A stretch of 64,000 nucleotides of DNA from Deltaproteobacteria bacterium (GTDB lineage Bacteria; Myxococcota_A; Polyangia; JAAYKL01): the NCBI GenBank assembly GCA_016935665.1, contig JAFGQN010000210.1, positions 1 to 64,000 of the forward strand, given 5' to 3'. Of this stretch, positions 55,256 to 64,000 are shown piece after piece (position 1 is the stretch's first letter; each line of letters begins with the position of its first letter). The notes below the pieces were generated by a model. It worked only from the letters and a program-made list of their open reading frames with translations. It had not been told where the DNA came from and did no database searches. Position numbers and translations under genes: made by a program.

Positions 55256-56720
55256 TTATTGCACATGGTGCATATTTTCATAACGATGTGTCAAAATCAG
55301 ACAAAGTCCGGCAAAAGTTATCAGTCCGTTTATCATCAACAGCTCATAGCCAAAAGTGTAATCCAAAAACCGTTGAGAAAGGTCATTGAGCCAAAATGAA
55401 ATTATGGGCGACAAAACAGCCACCAGTGGCGTCCACGTATCTTTAATTGAAAACGGCATAAACAATCCAAAGGCAAACAATCCGAGCAGTGGGCCATATG
55501 TGTACGACACAATAGTATAGATGGCATCAATAGCGCTTTTATCATTCAGCTCTCTAAACAAAAGAACAAGAAAAAAGAAAACCAACGTAAATCCAAAGTG
55601 AATGGACATTCGCTGTCTGGTACTGTTTTGACTATTCGTTTTTCCAACATTCAGGATATCAACTAAAAAAGATGTGGTCAGCGATGTCAGCGCGGAATCA
55701 GCACTTGAAAACGTGGCGGCAACAATTCCGATGATGAAACAGATCATGGTGAAACTCCCGGCCCCTTTCGCAAAAAACGGCAGGATGTCATCGTTGACCG
55801 CCGGGAGCGCAACTCCCGTCTGCGATGCGTACACAAGTAAAAGTGCACCCAGCGAAAGAAAAATAAGATTCACAGGAATAAACGCGAAACCATACCAAAG
55901 CATGTTGCGTCTGGATTCTTTAAAATTCCGACAGCTCAGATTCTTCTGCATAATATCCTGATCCAGTCCCGTCATAACAATGACCACGAAAATGCCACTG
56001 AGAAATTGTTTGAAAAAAAACTGACTGTTGTGCCAGTCATCAAATACAAACACACGGGACCACTGGCTATCAGTGATTGTTTTCACAGCGGATACCACAT
56101 CCATATTCATGCGGTCTATGACATCCACCAGAAGCAATACCGAGGCAAGAAGAAGCGCAATGGTCTTAAAAAAAATCAGTCCATACAATCGTTTTAATTC
56201 CACCCCGGCAAGTATATAAAAAAATAATGAGCAACGTGCTGCCCATGGTGATCGTAAATGGTATTTGCCACGCGTCAAATACAAATTGCTGCAATACAAT
56301 CACGACCACATACAGACGTGCAGCGGCGCCGACCGATTTTGACAAAATAAAAAACAATGCGGCGGTTCGGTGCGTGGCAACGCCAAACCGTTTTCCAAGG
56401 TAGCCGTAAATGCTGGTCAGATTCAGTTTGTAATACAATGGCAAAAGCAACGAGACAACCACGAGATAGCCGAAAAAAAATCCGACAACCATTTGCATAT
56501 AGGTAAACTGAACAGCTCGAACCATTCCTGGCACGGATATTACTGAGATACCGGAAAGTGTTGCCCCAATCATTCCCACCGCGACAACAAACCAGTGAGA
56601 CCGTTTCTCCCCCGAAAAAAACGACTCAGCACCATTGCCAGACCGACTGGTAAAAAATGAAATCAATCCAGGAACAATAAAGTAAACAATAAGAACGATA
56701 ACCACGAGCGATGACGACAT
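55256..56720 (-). pseudogene. Sodium:solute symporter (SSF) with a frameshift
   Basis: Two overlapping frames make up one transporter. The first, 184 codons from the ATG at 56720, ends CRGGIKTIVWTDFF and stop; the second, from the same place, continues FFKTIALLLASVLLLVD through the rest of the membrane segments to 55256. The break is at eight A on the plus strand (56168-56175); seven would restore a 487-residue protein of normal SSF size. Conserved GATLSGISVISVPG and the later TFSSADSALTS support the family. It may be a real mutation, a sequencing error, or slippage. It is 63 bases downstream of the HydG-like gene. Confidence 0.85.
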
Positions 56721-56783: not shown

Positions 56784-58280
56784 CTAAACATATACATCTC
56801 TTTGGCCGGCACAAATATCGCTGTAGTATTTGTTGAATTGTTTTCGCAGGGCGCCTTTATTGTAAAAGTCCATCTGTTCAATTTGCGCCAGTTCCTGTTC
56901 AATAATTTTTTCGCCGGCCGCTCTGGTTTGTGCAGACGCATAATCATCGAGATATTCTCTAAATGTCAGCACCGCATTCAATTTGCAGAATTTTCCTTCA
57001 GTGCCGCTGTGCAACAGTTTCATGATTTTGTCGCCGGTTCGACCACAGCGATAGCCGGCGGTGCAAAAGGACGTAATCATTCCCATTTTTGCCAGCTCGT
57101 GTATTACTTCATCCAGAGTTCGCGTGTCTCCCAGCATAAACTGTTGATGATCAATGTGTTGTTCAGACTGTGCCGCATAAGCGCCGACGCCAATTTTACT
57201 GGATGCGTCGGTTTGAGTGCAGCCAAGGGTTATGGCCTGCATGTGAATTCCCGGTTTCTCGCGAGCTGTCACAATGAGGCCGGTGTAGGGAATGGCCAGG
57301 CGAATGACGGTGATCATTCTCTTAAACAGTTTGTCGTTCACCAGATACCTGGAATCAATATAAGTGGACGAGCCACTTGCTGGCGTTAGCCTCGGCACAG
57401 AGACTGTATGCGGTCCAATATTGAACGCCCTTTCCAAATCCATGGCATGGGCAACAAGACCCAAAACCTCATATTTCCAGTCATGCAGGCCCAGCAATGC
57501 GCCGGCGCCCACATCGTCCACACCCGCTTCCATGGCGCGATGAAGCGCATACAGACGCCATCGATAATTGGCCTTGGGACCAAAGGGATGCATCTGTCTG
57601 TAAGTTTCTTTGTGATAGGTCTCCTGAAATACCTGAAAGGTCCCTATCCCCTCCCTGTGAAGCTTTTGTAAATCCGAGATACACATGGGGGCGGCATTAA
57701 CATTAATGCGTCGAATGGAAGTCGCCGTCTTTTGCGGTGTTTTTCTGTGAACGCTGTAAATTGCGTTGAGCGCGTTGCAAATGTAATTCACGTCTGAGCT
57801 GGGATGTTCGCCAAACACCACAATCATCCTTTTATGCCCTTCGGCAAGCACCTGCTTTGTTTCTTCTATTATCTCGGGTCGGGTAAGTGTACGTCTTCTT
57901 TCGACGGTATTGCCGCTGTTAAAGCCACAGTAGACGCATCCGTTTATACAGCAATTGCTGCAATAGAGCGGCGCAAAGAACACAATGCGGTTGTCATACA
58001 CCTTACGCTTCACTTTCAGGCCGGTGTCAGCCATTTCATTAAGTACATCAGGGTCTGTCACATTGGCGAGTAAAGCGGTCTCTTCAAGGGTGAGTCTTTC
58101 AATAGCCAGTGACTTTTCCAGAATATCTCTAATCCAGGCGCGGTCGGGATTGCACGCGTTTTCAAGGACCTGTTCGATGGCACAGCCATCAATAAAATCG
58201 CGACCGTTAATAAGGTATTTGTCAACTTCGGTTTCTTGAACTCTGGTTTTCGACCATTGGTGTATCTGAGCGAGGGACAT
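56784..58280 (-). CDS. hydG: HydG-like radical SAM protein
   Basis: This encodes 498 residues from the ATG at 58280 behind AGGAGAT; a longer frame has no site. The radical SAM cluster motif is CINGCVYC (Cys111, Cys115, Cys118). The C-terminal extension absent from ThiH is present. There the usual CTAC of HydG reads CTAGYRC: Cys406 is kept, Cys409 is Gly, and an extra Cys412 stands three residues later; the third Cys is Cys432. HydG splits tyrosine to build CO and CN of the [FeFe]-hydrogenase H-cluster. No hydE, hydF or hydrogenase gene is in the window. Confidence 0.85.
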   Translation of the reverse strand: MSLAQIHQWSKTRVQETEVDKYLINGRDFIDGCAIEQVLENACNPDRAWIRDILEKSLAIERLTLEETALLANVTDPDVLNEMADTGLKVKRKVYDNRIVFFAPLYCSNCCINGCVYCGFNSGNTVERRRTLTRPEIIEETKQVLAEGHKRMIVVFGEHPSSDVNYICNALNAIYSVHRKTPQKTATSIRRINVNAAPMCISDLQKLHREGIGTFQVFQETYHKETYRQMHPFGPKANYRWRLYALHRAMEAGVDDVGAGALLGLHDWKYEVLGLVAHAMDLERAFNIGPHTVSVPRLTPASGSSTYIDSRYLVNDKLFKRMITVIRLAIPYTGLIVTAREKPGIHMQAITLGCTQTDASSKIGVGAYAAQSEQHIDHQQFMLGDTRTLDEVIHELAKMGMITSFCTAGYRCGRTGDKIMKLLHSGTEGKFCKLNAVLTFREYLDDYASAQTRAAGEKIIEQELAQIEQMDFYNKGALRKQFNKYYSDICAGQRDVYV

Positions 58281-58804
58281 TTTCAAGTTATCTCCTGTCT
58301 GGTTTACAACAAGCAGTTTTCTGGTGTCATTGTGGTCACCAATATTTGAGAACCTGCCAGAAATAAGTGAAGCCGGTAATGAAATATCGTCTGCTAAAAC
58401 TATTGAGCCACATCCGTTCTGGCTTAAGAAAAACAAAGCATTCGTGTGCTTCCGTTGGGCGTGCATGTATTTGAAAAAGAAAACGCACAAAGCGTTTATC
58501 AACGACTGGAAGCATGGCGTTCAACCGTTTGGGGCCCATTCGGTTCAAGGTGATATATCGATTTTGCAAATAATTTCAAAAGTAACGGTGCCTTGCTGAA
58601 CAGTCAAACGCCTTTGGCCGCACGCCGGTCAACATGCGGCAACCGGAAACGTCCGCAATTCCAACCGCCACCACGCATAATCGAATTAAAATTGGGGTAA
58701 ACAGCAGAATGCTTCTCCCAAAAAACATCCGGTGTCAAAACATGACGGCGTTTATGACACGTGCAAGCCATAATGCCACCGTCAATTGCTTCGCATCTCA
58801 CTAT
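58281..58804. other. Divergent intergenic region
   Basis: Over 520 bases separate the HydG-like gene start from the palindrome at 58805. Short frames on both strands lack ribosome binding sites. Possible transcription signals could not be identified with confidence apart from the palindrome at its right end. Confidence 0.45.
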
Positions 58805-58842: not shown

Positions 58843-59796
58843 ATGAATAAGATCCCACATTTTCGAAATACTATTGTTTTAGCACTTGGGCTATTTCTGT
58901 GCGGCTGTTTTGTTGATTCGTTCTGCTACAATCACGCGGACTGCCCAAATGAGCAGCGTTGCAACATTCAAACCGGCGCGTGTTATCCCCGGGAATGCAG
59001 TAAGGATGCTGATTGTCCGGCCAAACAATCATGCAACACCACTACCTATTCGTGCGACGCAATAAAATGTCGCAGCGATGGCGATTGCAACGAGGGATAT
59101 ACCTGCAACCCCCAAACAGGTATTTGCAAAGCCCAAACAAAGCTTTATTGCCCCGAAGGCATGGTGGCAATCGATAATTCTTTTTGCGTCGATATTTACG
59201 AGGCCTCCCGGCCCGACGCCACCGCCACGCAGAAAGGCAGCGATGAATCGAAGGCGGTATCCGTACAGGGGGTCATTCCGTGGCAGGTTAAAGACAATGC
59301 CACCGCCCAACAGGCCTGCGAAGCGGCGGGCAAATCGCTCTGCAGCGAATCTCAGTGGGAATCAACTTGCAGCGGCCCCGCCCAAACCGTTTATGCCTAT
59401 GGCGACGAATACGAATCGGCCACTTGCAATGGCATCGATACTTTTTGCCTGTGCGATGACTGCCAGCCCGAAAAAACCTGCTCGTATCCGTTTTGCTACA
59501 ACGACTGCGGCGCGGCCTTTAAAGTTCAACCCACCGGCAGTTTTGTCGGGTGCACCAACAGCTATGGGGTGTACGACATGAACGGCAACCTGTGGGAACA
59601 CGTACTCAATGGAACCGACGCCAGTGTCCGCGGGGGCGCATATAACTGCGGCGATTCGAAAAAACTCCATCAATGCAGTTATGTTCCCCAAAGCTGGGTG
59701 CCGTCGGCCCGCGGCTTCCGCTGCTGCGCACCGGGATCACTCAACACCCCGACCGATGGGGCATCCGATGGCTCCGACAGCGAGGTGGCGCCATGA
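58843..59796 (+). CDS. FGE-sulfatase-type (SUMF1) lipoprotein with Cys-rich repeats
   Basis: This encodes 317 residues from MNKIPHF. Lipobox LCGC is followed by three Cys-rich units of about 22 residues (C..DC..G..C...G.C type). The FGE-sulfatase domain begins near EGMVAIDNSFCVDIYEAS and has AAGKSLCSESQWE, YGVYDMNGNLWE and RGGAYNC with GFRCC near the end. Whether it has the FGE active-site Cys pair is uncertain. There is no ribosome binding site, in line with leaderless initiation. Its stop overlaps the next ATG (ATGA). Confidence 0.8.
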   Translation: MNKIPHFRNTIVLALGLFLCGCFVDSFCYNHADCPNEQRCNIQTGACYPRECSKDADCPAKQSCNTTTYSCDAIKCRSDGDCNEGYTCNPQTGICKAQTKLYCPEGMVAIDNSFCVDIYEASRPDATATQKGSDESKAVSVQGVIPWQVKDNATAQQACEAAGKSLCSESQWESTCSGPAQTVYAYGDEYESATCNGIDTFCLCDDCQPEKTCSYPFCYNDCGAAFKVQPTGSFVGCTNSYGVYDMNGNLWEHVLNGTDASVRGGAYNCGDSKKLHQCSYVPQSWVPSARGFRCCAPGSLNTPTDGASDGSDSEVAP

Positions 59797-61409
59797 GGGA
59801 AAAAGCAACCAGTCGCCCTTCACTCTTTGCAAATGCAACGCGACGCATCCCTCTGCCTCTGTCAGCAATAATTGCCCTGGTGCTGCAATTATTTTCCGCC
59901 AGCGCTTCCGCCAACGCTGCCAGTCTGTGTGTCGCCTGCGAATGGCAACAGCTCCACGATGACATGGCGGCGAACAATATTGGCGCGTCAATCGACAGAT
60001 TCAAAGCGTTGCGGGACGCATATCCCAATCGCAAAGCGCCTGTTTTACTTCTGGCCAGCGCGTACGATGCCGATGGCAATGGATACTGGGCGCTAAATGT
60101 ACTCTACAGCTGGTATCAGGCGCATCCCAACGATTGTGAAGTGCTGTCATTTATTATCTGGCAGCAGATAAAGCAGTTGAATGTGGGTGGCGCCAAAGAG
60201 TTAATGACGCACCCCCACTGCCCCGAAGATGACACCGACAAAAGTCGCTGGAAGCTCATTTCCGCCTACCTCGACGAACTGAACGGCCAAAAGGTCGCCG
60301 CGCCATCGACCCTGGAATTGGCATGGCCCGAAGATGTGACCCTGTGGCAATCAATGTGGCAAAGGGCCGCCCCTGGCAGAAAGCCGCCTATCGAGATTCG
60401 GGGCGCCCTCGAAACCGGGTATACATCCAATGCCCAGGCGGGGTCTTCCATCGATACGGCCGGCAGTCAGTCGAAAAGCGCCACAGGCAAACTGCAGGTT
60501 CAGGCATGGTTTGTAGCGCCCACCGCAAAGAAAGTTCGCCCGGTGATGGGGCTATCGACTCGGTTGAGCGGCTATTTGACCGACGAGGCGCGAAAATACT
60601 CATATATTGATTTGGCATGGCAACCCGGAATCCTTTTGGGCAGAACAACCACACTGCGCCTGAATTACAAAGGCAACCTGATGTTGTTAAACTGGCCCGG
60701 CAAGGAAATTTTTCACGAAACCCACCGACTGGAATTTGAATTGTCTGCACCGTCGGGCAATTTGCTCTTCGGGGGCGTCGGCAGACGGATTTACGCCGAA
60801 AATGGTCGCACCAGATGGGAAGTGGACGCTGGGTATGGCCGAACAAAAATTCTTAACTCGTGGGCAACTGTACTGCTGGGCATCAACGGTCGATATTACG
60901 ATGCGATTGGCGATCCTTACGATGAAGCAGGTGGCGGTATATTGGGGGCGGCATATTTTTCGCTTCCCCACACCATGTCTATGCGTACCGGGGTAAACAC
61001 AGGCATGGATTTCTTTTTTAACTCCGGCGGCGACCTGGGGCATCTTGCCTATGGCACTATCGACAAACGGCGGGACTTGACTTTCAGACACTTTGACGAA
61101 TTGTGGTTTCCGCCACTGGGCCAACTGAAATGGGGAATTCGATACGAATTCAACGTTCGAGACTCCCGGGCCGACAGCGCCCACGGAGCCAGCGACTACG
61201 ATTACCAGGAACATCGCGCTATGCTTAAATTGTCATTTGATCTGCGTGCCAACCCATTGGCCCCGCGCACCCGCGAAACATCTGATCACGTGCCCCTCGA
61301 TTATGATCAGGAGTCATCGCAAAATGCACAGAGAATAGACAGCACCGAAATCATTGATATGCTGCGCGCCGACGAAGCGGCCCGCGCCGCATCATCGTGT
61401 GTGGAATGA
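59793..61409 (+). CDS. Outer-membrane protein: TPR-like domain plus beta-barrel (Slam-like layout)
   Basis: This encodes 538 residues from the ATG overlapping the previous stop. A signal peptide ends near SASANA. The N-terminal 160 residues are helical and TPR-like (ALNVLYSWYQAHPND, LLASAYDADG). From about residue 205 onwards many alternating strands follow (GALETGYTSNAQAG, TTLRLNYKGNLML, WEVDAGYGRTKIL), typical of a barrel of 12-16 strands. The order TPR plus barrel is that of surface lipoprotein assembly modifiers. Membership is based on layout and on the flanking lipoprotein genes. Confidence 0.7.
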   Translation: MREKATSRPSLFANATRRIPLPLSAIIALVLQLFSASASANAASLCVACEWQQLHDDMAANNIGASIDRFKALRDAYPNRKAPVLLLASAYDADGNGYWALNVLYSWYQAHPNDCEVLSFIIWQQIKQLNVGGAKELMTHPHCPEDDTDKSRWKLISAYLDELNGQKVAAPSTLELAWPEDVTLWQSMWQRAAPGRKPPIEIRGALETGYTSNAQAGSSIDTAGSQSKSATGKLQVQAWFVAPTAKKVRPVMGLSTRLSGYLTDEARKYSYIDLAWQPGILLGRTTTLRLNYKGNLMLLNWPGKEIFHETHRLEFELSAPSGNLLFGGVGRRIYAENGRTRWEVDAGYGRTKILNSWATVLLGINGRYYDAIGDPYDEAGGGILGAAYFSLPHTMSMRTGVNTGMDFFFNSGGDLGHLAYGTIDKRRDLTFRHFDELWFPPLGQLKWGIRYEFNVRDSRADSAHGASDYDYQEHRAMLKLSFDLRANPLAPRTRETSDHVPLDYDQESSQNAQRIDSTEIIDMLRADEAARAASSCVE

Positions 61410-61422
61410 ATAAGGAGTTCTT

Positions 61423-62589
61423 ATGTTTAACAGCCTTTACACTATTCGCCTGTTGGCGAGCCCACTGCTTTTCACACTGCTTTTCACACTGCTATTCGTC
61501 ACCGCGTGCGACACCACACAGGTTGTTGACAACAAAAGCAGCGAAAATGTCAACGACACGATGACCGATATCGACACATCCACGTCATCGGCAGAGGCAA
61601 ATGACAGCGACTCGGTAGAAACCACAGACAGCAACAGCGGTACCGGAGATGGGGGCGGATGTATTTCTGAAGATACCGACACTGGCACCGGCCTCGACAT
61701 CACTGATACGGTAACTACCGCTGATACGACAACCACTGCGGATACCGCAAGTGCTGCCAATACGGCAGACACGACAGACACGACAGACACGACAGACACG
61801 GCAGACACCGCCTCTGGTACAGAATCTAATGCTGATGATACATCTTCGAGTGCTGCTGATTCAAGCACATCATCTGAAAACACTGATTCAGACACGGGCG
61901 ATTCAATTCTGTGTCCGTCTGATATGGTGCTGGTTGCGCCAATAACGGATTCCAGCGGAAACGCACGATTCTGCATTGACCGTTATGAGGCATCCAGATC
62001 AGATGCCACTGCAGGCAGCGCCGGCACAGATGAATCTGTGGCCATGTCCGTCTATGGTGTGCTGCCGTGGTATGTGCGCCCCATGTCGGCCGAAGCACTC
62101 GACACGTTTAAAACCGCCTGCTTGGCTGCGGGAAAATATCTGTGCAACGACGTGGAGTGGGAGTACAGCTGCAAGGGGCACGACAACACCAACTATGTCT
62201 GGGGAAACGATTTCGATGTCGAAATTTGCAATAACGTGGCCACTTTCTGTGATGACTACTGCGAAAAAAACGGCATTGCCGAAGATGCTTGCAACCTGAA
62301 CACCTTCAGCTGCGGCTATCATTGTGGCGACGCCACCCTGGACGTGAACTGTTTTCAGATGGCGCCAACCGGTCAGTTTACTCAATGCACCAACGCCATT
62401 GGCACCTTCGATATTAACGGCAACCTGTGGGAAATTGTCACATCAGAAACAGCGACATCTGGATACGAAATTCGCGGCGGCGCGTTCAATTGCGCCAGTC
62501 CGAGCTCTCGCCTGCAATGCAGCCAACTGGCAGACTGGACCGACCTTTACGCCGGATTCCGCTGCTGCAAAGATACTCAAACACCATAG
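61423..62589 (+). CDS. FGE-sulfatase-type lipoprotein with Asp/Thr linker
   Basis: This encodes 388 residues with AAGGAG upstream. Lipobox VTAC is followed by a 130-residue linker rich in D, T, S and A (ADTTDTTDTTDTAD). The FGE domain (about 165-388) has PSDMVLVAPITDSSG, ICIDRYEAS-like FCIDRYEAS, AAGKYLCNDVEWEY, IGTFDINGNLWE, IRGGAFNC and GFRCC. It is a paralogue of the gene at 58843 with a different N-terminal region. It lies 13 bases after the barrel gene. Confidence 0.85.
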   Translation: MFNSLYTIRLLASPLLFTLLFTLLFVTACDTTQVVDNKSSENVNDTMTDIDTSTSSAEANDSDSVETTDSNSGTGDGGGCISEDTDTGTGLDITDTVTTADTTTTADTASAANTADTTDTTDTTDTADTASGTESNADDTSSSAADSSTSSENTDSDTGDSILCPSDMVLVAPITDSSGNARFCIDRYEASRSDATAGSAGTDESVAMSVYGVLPWYVRPMSAEALDTFKTACLAAGKYLCNDVEWEYSCKGHDNTNYVWGNDFDVEICNNVATFCDDYCEKNGIAEDACNLNTFSCGYHCGDATLDVNCFQMAPTGQFTQCTNAIGTFDINGNLWEIVTSETATSGYEIRGGAFNCASPSSRLQCSQLADWTDLYAGFRCCKDTQTP

Positions 62590-62696
62590 ATACAGTTACA
62601 AATTTTTTATTGCTCATTTGGTTCTCAATCTCCCGATGAAAGGAATTGTTGATGTAAATGGCAAATTTCTTTCAACATTTTTCAGGGAGCCCCAAT

Positions 62697-64000
62697 ATGA
62701 CACAAATCATTCGTTTTTTTCTTCTTATGGGACTGGTTTCCGCAATTGGTTTCACAGGGGGATGTAACAATTCCGCGTCATCAAAAGATGACAGCCCAGA
62801 CGCAACTTCCGATGCAGATTCTGACAGCGACACGGATTCCGACGGTGATTCGGATTCTGACAGTGATTCGGATTCTGACGGTGATTCGGATTCTGACGGT
62901 GATACCATTGCATCGCCATCGGATGACTATCCAACAAACATCTATGATGCCTGCAGGGTGGCGCCAAAAATTATCGACAAGTCCTCGCTGGCCGTTGTGG
63001 ACAGCGCCAACCAATTTGGCATGGCGTTGTTCCGGGAAACAGTTTCCAGTGCAGCGGGTGCGAATGTGTCCCTCTCGCCACTCAGCATGCACCAGGTATG
63101 GGCCATGGTGCTCAACGGAACAATGGATATTGCGGCGGATGAGCTGCAGGAGGTGTTGCAATTGGGCGATATGGATATCTCCGCATTGAATGATGGCTAT
63201 ACAGAAATCCTGGCCACACTGGATAATCTGGATGAAGACGTCACCCTGGCCCAGGCCAACTCTATATGGATGAACAGCAACTATGAAGGAATGGTTAAAC
63301 AGGACTATATCGACGCGGTCGAAACGTCATACAACGCAGTAATTGAAACGATCAGCTTTGCTGAGCCAACTGCCACCGGTACCATCAATCAGTGGGTCAG
63401 CGACAATACCGAAGGATTCATTACAGACCTGATTGAACCGCCCATCGGCCCGGACAGTGCCATGTTTCTGATTAATGCATTGTACTTTGCCGCGCCATGG
63501 ACTTTCGAGTTCGATACACAAAAGACCGCACCAGAGGCATTCACTACCCGAACCGGAGATTCGAAGCAAATTGATACAATGCACACTGAGATCAATGTGC
63601 GCTATTACAGGGGCGATAACTTTCAACTGGTGGAACTGCCATACGCGCACGGCGTGTATGCCATGACTGTTATTTTGCCGGATTCCAACGAAGAAATGGA
63701 CAACATTGTTGAAAACATATCCGCTGAAGACTGGCAACACTGGCATGATTATTCCTTTCCCACCACTGTCGAGCTGTCGCTGCCCAGATTTGAAGTGGCA
63801 TTCGATGCCATCAATGGTAGTTCAAAGGCGTTTATTGAAGCCTTCAAATCAATGGGACTGGTACATATTTTCGAATGGAGTGATTTGTATCTATCCGGCA
63901 TGCTCAATTTGGGTGGAGAAGTTCAGGCCAAAGTTGCAGATGTTAAACAAAAAACGTTATTGAAAGTGCACGAACAGGGCGCAGAAGCTGCAGCGGCCAG
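62697..64000 (+). CDS. Lipoprotein serpin, 3' end outside the window
   Basis: 434 complete codons, then the window ends. A signal peptide with lipobox TGGC precedes a D/S/G-rich linker (about residues 30-68). The serpin fold follows, with NVSLSPLSMHQVWAMVLNG, ALYFAAPWTFEF, NFQLVELPYA, ELSLPRFEV and the reactive-loop hinge KVHEQGAEAAAA at the edge. The hinge is of the inhibitory type (small residues in P12-P9). It would trap a serine or cysteine protease outside the cell; P1 lies beyond the edge. GGGAG lies upstream of the ATG. Confidence 0.88.
   Translation, partial: MTQIIRFFLLMGLVSAIGFTGGCNNSASSKDDSPDATSDADSDSDTDSDGDSDSDSDSDSDGDSDSDGDTIASPSDDYPTNIYDACRVAPKIIDKSSLAVVDSANQFGMALFRETVSSAAGANVSLSPLSMHQVWAMVLNGTMDIAADELQEVLQLGDMDISALNDGYTEILATLDNLDEDVTLAQANSIWMNSNYEGMVKQDYIDAVETSYNAVIETISFAEPTATGTINQWVSDNTEGFITDLIEPPIGPDSAMFLINALYFAAPWTFEFDTQKTAPEAFTTRTGDSKQIDTMHTEINVRYYRGDNFQLVELPYAHGVYAMTVILPDSNEEMDNIVENISAEDWQHWHDYSFPTTVELSLPRFEVAFDAINGSSKAFIEAFKSMGLVHIFEWSDLYLSGMLNLGGEVQAKVADVKQKTLLKVHEQGAEAAAA

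Follow-up and report, generated by a model that had tools for sequence, protein, structure and literature searches.

The barrel gene at the centre of a compact three-gene locus in a Myxococcota genome encodes a TPR-containing, 14-stranded outer-membrane protein that profile comparisons place as a remote homologue of the SlipAM (Slam; Pfam accession PF04575) superfamily. The two lipoproteins encoded on either side of it are paralogues with the fold of formylglycine-generating enzymes (FGE). With moderate confidence, we take the barrel protein to be a SlipAM-superfamily translocon that exports these disulfide-rich, probably non-catalytic lipoproteins and that is served by thiol-redox genes of its own. 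The locus lies in a stretch of 64,000 nt, here called the window, from a Deltaproteobacteria bacterium (Myxococcota_A; Polyangia; JAAYKL01; GCA_016935665.1, JAFGQN010000210.1, positions 1-64,000).

Two FGE-fold lipoproteins flank a barrel gene

The layout of the locus (Table 1) agrees with what a sequence-only reading of this DNA had claimed: the first lipoprotein gene (FGE1) and the barrel gene share a 4-base ATGA overlap, the second lipoprotein gene (FGE2) starts 13 bases 3' of the barrel stop and is preceded by AAGGAG, and export signals can be recognized by reading in all three products, as lipoboxes in FGE1 (LCG↓C) and FGE2 (VTA↓C) and as an N-terminal signal sequence in the barrel protein. 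The paralogy of the two lipoproteins, claimed in the same reading, is equally clear: 41.5% of 224 aligned columns are identical (E 8e-46). Scans of the three-gene region for promoters and terminators gave nothing exceeding shuffles.

Table 1. Features of the FGE-barrel locus, in window coordinates.
Feature	Position	Strand	Details
FGE1 lipoprotein: Cys-rich N-terminal repeats, then FGE/SUMF1-fold domain	58843..59796	+	317 aa, 31 Cys, PF03781 39.3 bits
FGE-fold domain of FGE1 (residues 103-296), without Cys341 equivalent	59149..59730	+	
ATGA stop/start overlap of FGE1 and barrel gene	59793..59796	+	sequence read directly
Barrel gene: TPR and 14-stranded outer-membrane beta-barrel, remote SlipAM (Slam) superfamily homologue by profile comparison	59793..61409	+	538 aa
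Periplasmic TPR part of barrel protein (residues 47-163), conserved Cys49, Cys115, Cys143	59931..60281	+	
14-stranded barrel (residues 200-486)	60390..61250	+	AlphaFold model
C-terminal helix and tail MLRADEAARAASSCVE of barrel protein, invariant Cys536	61344..61409	+	33/33 family members
FGE2 lipoprotein: Thr/Ser/Asp-rich linker, then FGE-fold domain	61423..62589	+	388 aa, 19 Cys, PF03781 31.9 bits

Both lipoproteins pass the Pfam cut-off of 23.3 bits for the FGE-sulfatase model (PF03781), and the model of FGE1 matches the FGE/C-type-lectin fold. By sequence, the best solved relative of the lipoprotein domain is SUMF2 (pFGE), a catalytically inactive paralogue of FGE. The domain shares its fold with FGE/SUMF1 and SUMF2 and keeps the equivalents of Cys336 and Cys346. 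The first member of the catalytic Cys336/Cys341 copper pair of FGE is retained as C269 of FGE1, whereas the second is absent; the next cysteine, C278, aligns with Cys346. Because the second catalytic cysteine is missing, we judge FGE catalysis by these lipoproteins unlikely and regard them, from their residues, as probably non-catalytic. They also differ from FGE/SUMF1 and SUMF2 in having a lipid anchor, many extra conserved cysteines and, in FGE1, N-terminal Cys repeats, which weakly resemble TIGR04201. At many positions of the FGE domains, 37 of the 38 domains have a cysteine. Some relatives encode FGE1 and FGE2 as a single fused protein.

Three further genes of the window lie close by. On the minus strand, just upstream of FGE1, positions 56784-58502 encode a radical SAM protein with a BATS domain, HydG/ThiH-like by reading, and two overlapping frames at 55256-56720, also on the minus strand, look like one sodium:solute-symporter-type gene broken by a frameshift. 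Positions 62694-64000 encode a serpin-family lipoprotein whose linker of Ser-Asp repeats derives from an 18-base tandem repeat (62817-62903).

The barrel protein and its relation to Slam

Known cases of Slam-type export come from Proteobacteria and involve TbpB-like clients. Taken as a single sequence, the window's barrel protein has no match in Pfam or among PDB sequences, and a genome scan with it found no relatives; an alignment was needed as the query. The resulting family alignment contains the window protein and 32 relatives (33 members), 29 of which match TPR_19; TPR-only matches in ~180 further class genomes were set aside as unspecific. The AlphaFold model of the protein (pLDDT 85.7, pTM 0.80) consists of TPR helices, exactly 14 strands and a C-terminal helix, in that order. 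All five cysteines of the protein (46, 49, 115, 143 and 536) fall where the family tends toward cysteine; Cys115 and Cys143 are kept in 31 of 31 sequences, and Cys536 in all 33.

None of the 33 family members passes the SlipAM cut-off of 22 bits. Weak SlipAM matches (E up to 1) were obtained for four of them, the best with an E value of 0.024, and the window protein is unmatched. Profile-profile comparison with hhalign gave a different picture: when barrels only were compared, the family matched a set of 19 Myxococcota SlipAM-matching proteins, which served as the yardstick in place of Neisseria Slam and six of which also match the Slam TPR model, at 96.7% in local and 98.4% in global mode across the entire barrel; reversed controls did not exceed 0.5%. 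A second link runs through genomes with the FGE lipoprotein and without the window's barrel family, where the same operon encodes another TPR-barrel protein. After removal of one shared protein, the profile of these intermediate barrels matched the window's barrel family at 98.7% and SlipAM at 99.7%. One same-operon barrel of another family (genome G028) scored 23.1 bits in the genome search and 20.5 in hmmscan, that is, on both sides of the SlipAM cut-off. Together, the direct and intermediate profile links indicate that the barrel position of the operon is held by SlipAM-superfamily proteins.

The sequence-only reading had suggested that the middle gene might be Slam-like. Much of this stands: the TPR part and the 14 strands are present in the AlphaFold model, the pairing with FGE genes is conserved, and the barrel is linked by profile comparison to SlipAM rather than to an unrelated porin family. 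What does not stand is membership by the curated cut-off, so the protein is best described as a remote superfamily homologue that scores below the formal Pfam limit. It shares with Slam (SlipAM, DUF560, TXISS) a signal peptide, a periplasmic TPR domain, a 14-stranded barrel, an adjacent lipoprotein gene and remote homology over the full length of the barrel (PMC5449769, PMC8406197). Slam itself has a 14-stranded barrel, and lipoprotein genes adjoin about half of the surveyed Slam homologues (PMC5449769). The differences lie in the putative clients, which are Cys-rich and FGE-fold rather than TbpB-like, in the conserved cysteines and C-terminal Cys tail of the barrel, and in redox partner genes, which we did not find reported for Slam. 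The 8-stranded C-terminal barrel that characterizes known Slam cargo (PMC8406197) is absent from the FGE1 model.

A conserved unit with redox genes

Among 32 related loci, all from other genomes, 20 have an FGE gene immediately upstream of the barrel gene, and the 4-base overlap recurs in 12 of these 20 pairs. The association of barrel and FGE-type lipoprotein is thus conserved in relatives, in line with the earlier proposal. The source genome has 29 FGE-domain matches in 8.2 Mb, a density at which chance would not be expected to place an FGE gene beside a given gene. The serpin, which had been put forward as a possible further client, fared otherwise: there is none near any of the 32 related barrels, and we reject it as a member of the unit.

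The wider operon adds three redox genes, which encode a rhodanese-like membrane protein, a MauE/DoxX membrane protein and a DsbA-like thioredoxin. MauE is found downstream of the barrel in 22 of the 32 loci, with the membrane-anchored rhodanese-like protein encoded between the two; 24 loci contain the DsbA-like gene. The CxxCPxC motif of the DsbA-like thioredoxin is invariant. In the rhodanese-like domain, Gly replaces the catalytic Cys in 15 of the 15 sequences with a readable motif, which makes sulfur transfer by this protein unlikely. Genes for peroxiredoxin and pyridine nucleotide-disulfide oxidoreductase also occur near related barrels. The gene families seen repeatedly around the related barrels encode redox proteins and lipoproteins, and no conserved polysaccharide genes were found there. 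In the MauE-MauD and DoxX-SseA thiol systems, MauE/DoxX is paired with a thioredoxin-fold protein or a rhodanese. The conserved unit resembles these systems in combining a MauE/DoxX membrane protein with both kinds of partner, but it is linked to an outer-membrane barrel and lipoproteins, and its rhodanese-like domain is without the catalytic Cys. In looking for a published description of a MauE-rhodanese-thioredoxin-lipoprotein unit, of FGE-type surface lipoproteins or of DUF560 in Myxococcota, we found none for the five-gene unit.

In the source genome, the rhodanese-like, MauE and DsbA-like genes lie together on a contig of their own (C60), apart from the FGE-barrel contig. Two more genes follow them there, which by reading encode a protein resembling truncated haemoglobin and a SAM methyltransferase whose sequence ends in CCCG; the whole set occupies L162:421-3598 (about 4040-7220 of C60). 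Another contig, C27, carries a second barrel-gene relic on the minus strand (C27:27149-27235; L070:9150-9236), in which the C-terminal DSNEIAEILRAHEAAKAVSSCVE and a few preceding residues can be read. The relic amounts to roughly the last 28 codons; right after it come the genes for an FGE2 paralogue and, in convergent orientation, a rhodanese lipoprotein. This locus is a decayed second copy of the unit.

The related loci also show variants. A barrel subfamily in genomes G017, G026 and G042 adjoins another type of Cys-rich lipoprotein in place of FGE. At L095, L097 and L101 (e.g., L031:9788-10552), a barrel subfamily with the tail RSCGCAE stands beside a Cys-rich lipoprotein that is divergent and includes a thioredoxin-like part, with no FGE. 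At another locus, a short lipoprotein with an FGE1-type Cys-rich N-terminus and without the FGE domain is encoded upstream of the barrel (L083:8480-8740). Genes for NifX-like proteins and NUBPL/MinD-type ATPases lie within about 9 kb of the operons at L072, L092 and L102.

The association extends to whole genomes. We compared 318 genomes of the class, 22 with the barrel and 296 without it. A cluster-type DsbA-like protein is present in 17 of the 22 barrel genomes and in 2 of the 296 others (p 7e-22), and a cluster-type FGE in 18 of 22 and 16 of 296, respectively (p 1e-16). These p-values take no account of how closely the genomes are related, and the score thresholds of 190 and 350 bits were chosen by eye where the lists of hits showed gaps. 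Several of the 16 FGE-positive, barrel-negative genomes carry a SlipAM-nearer barrel instead.

Proposed function and alternatives

The conserved unit and its disulfide-chemistry genes suggest a surface-display system specialised for disulfide-rich proteins. In the pathway that we infer, the periplasmic TPR domain would receive FGE1 and FGE2 as clients, and the 14-stranded barrel would hand them over to the cell surface. Slam clients cross unfolded, held by a periplasmic chaperone (PMC9090332), and since clients must do so, premature disulfides in FGE1 and FGE2 would block export. Proteins with 19-31 cysteines would need management of their thiol state, and we therefore propose a Slam-like exporter with dedicated redox genes: the DsbA-like thioredoxin, MauE/DoxX and the rhodanese-like anchor would act on the pathway by setting the thiol state of both the clients and the barrel's conserved cysteines, with a direction of electron flow that we likewise infer. 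A tentative extension is that the family forms a redox-controlled branch of the Slam superfamily, with redox-capable cysteines in the translocon; the DsbA-like/MauE pair might then keep the clients export-competent or oxidise them during or after export.

Two other accounts of the same genes have to be weighed, both of which we consider improbable. On the one hand, the barrel might be a passive CymA/OmpG-like channel that lets through a small molecule, for instance a thiol or a sulfur compound. The FGE lipoproteins would then be attached to it as subunits for binding or gating, and the rhodanese-like, MauE and DsbA-like proteins would form a chain for thiol or sulfur oxidation in the inner membrane. 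The best structural matches of the barrel are indeed 14-stranded passive pores, CymA (Z 20.6, rmsd 3.5, 272 residues) and OmpG (Z 18.9), although these are the closest solved folds among the matches listed because no solved Slam structure is among them. The nearby MauE/DoxX, rhodanese, peroxiredoxin and pyridine nucleotide-disulfide oxidoreductase genes would also suit such a channel. However, the TPR domain and the SlipAM-type profile match suit protein export better, and the Gly at the catalytic position of the rhodanese-like domain speaks against sulfur transfer.

On the other hand, the redox genes might be the core of the unit, a pathway devoted to forming disulfides in Cys-rich FGE-fold lipoproteins; the barrel would then be just their assembly platform at the outer membrane and no translocon. 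This is consistent with cysteines being the most conserved traits of the unit, in the FGE domains, in the DsbA-like motif and in the barrel tail. Yet a scaffold needs no 14-stranded SlipAM-type barrel, the coupling of FGE and barrel genes is tight, and in the source genome the two halves of the unit, FGE-barrel and redox, are on separate contigs.

An exopolysaccharide exporter of the BcsC/PgaA type, finally, is very improbable: BcsC, PgaA and PelB have TPR helices followed by an outer-membrane barrel and give high Foldseek rows (BcsC first, 9b8a, E 6.7e-10; PgaA third), but the family's barrel matches the BcsC C-terminal barrel profile (PF05420) at 0.5%, the level of the reversed controls and the ground on which we judge this function unlikely, the barrels of these export porins have 16 strands (so in BcsC and PgaA) rather than 14, and the genes that recur around the related barrels are of other kinds. 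PgaA-barrel matches occur in only 2 of 284 genomes of the phylum.

Export of FGE-fold lipoproteins by a SlipAM-superfamily translocon would be a likely role for the conserved unit of five genes, of which we found no earlier description. A conserved Myxococcota branch whose clients have another fold, and which has disulfide chemistry of its own, would widen the known cargo of the Slam pathway, and it would make testable how proteins with 20-30 cysteines are handled by a translocon that requires unfolded clients.
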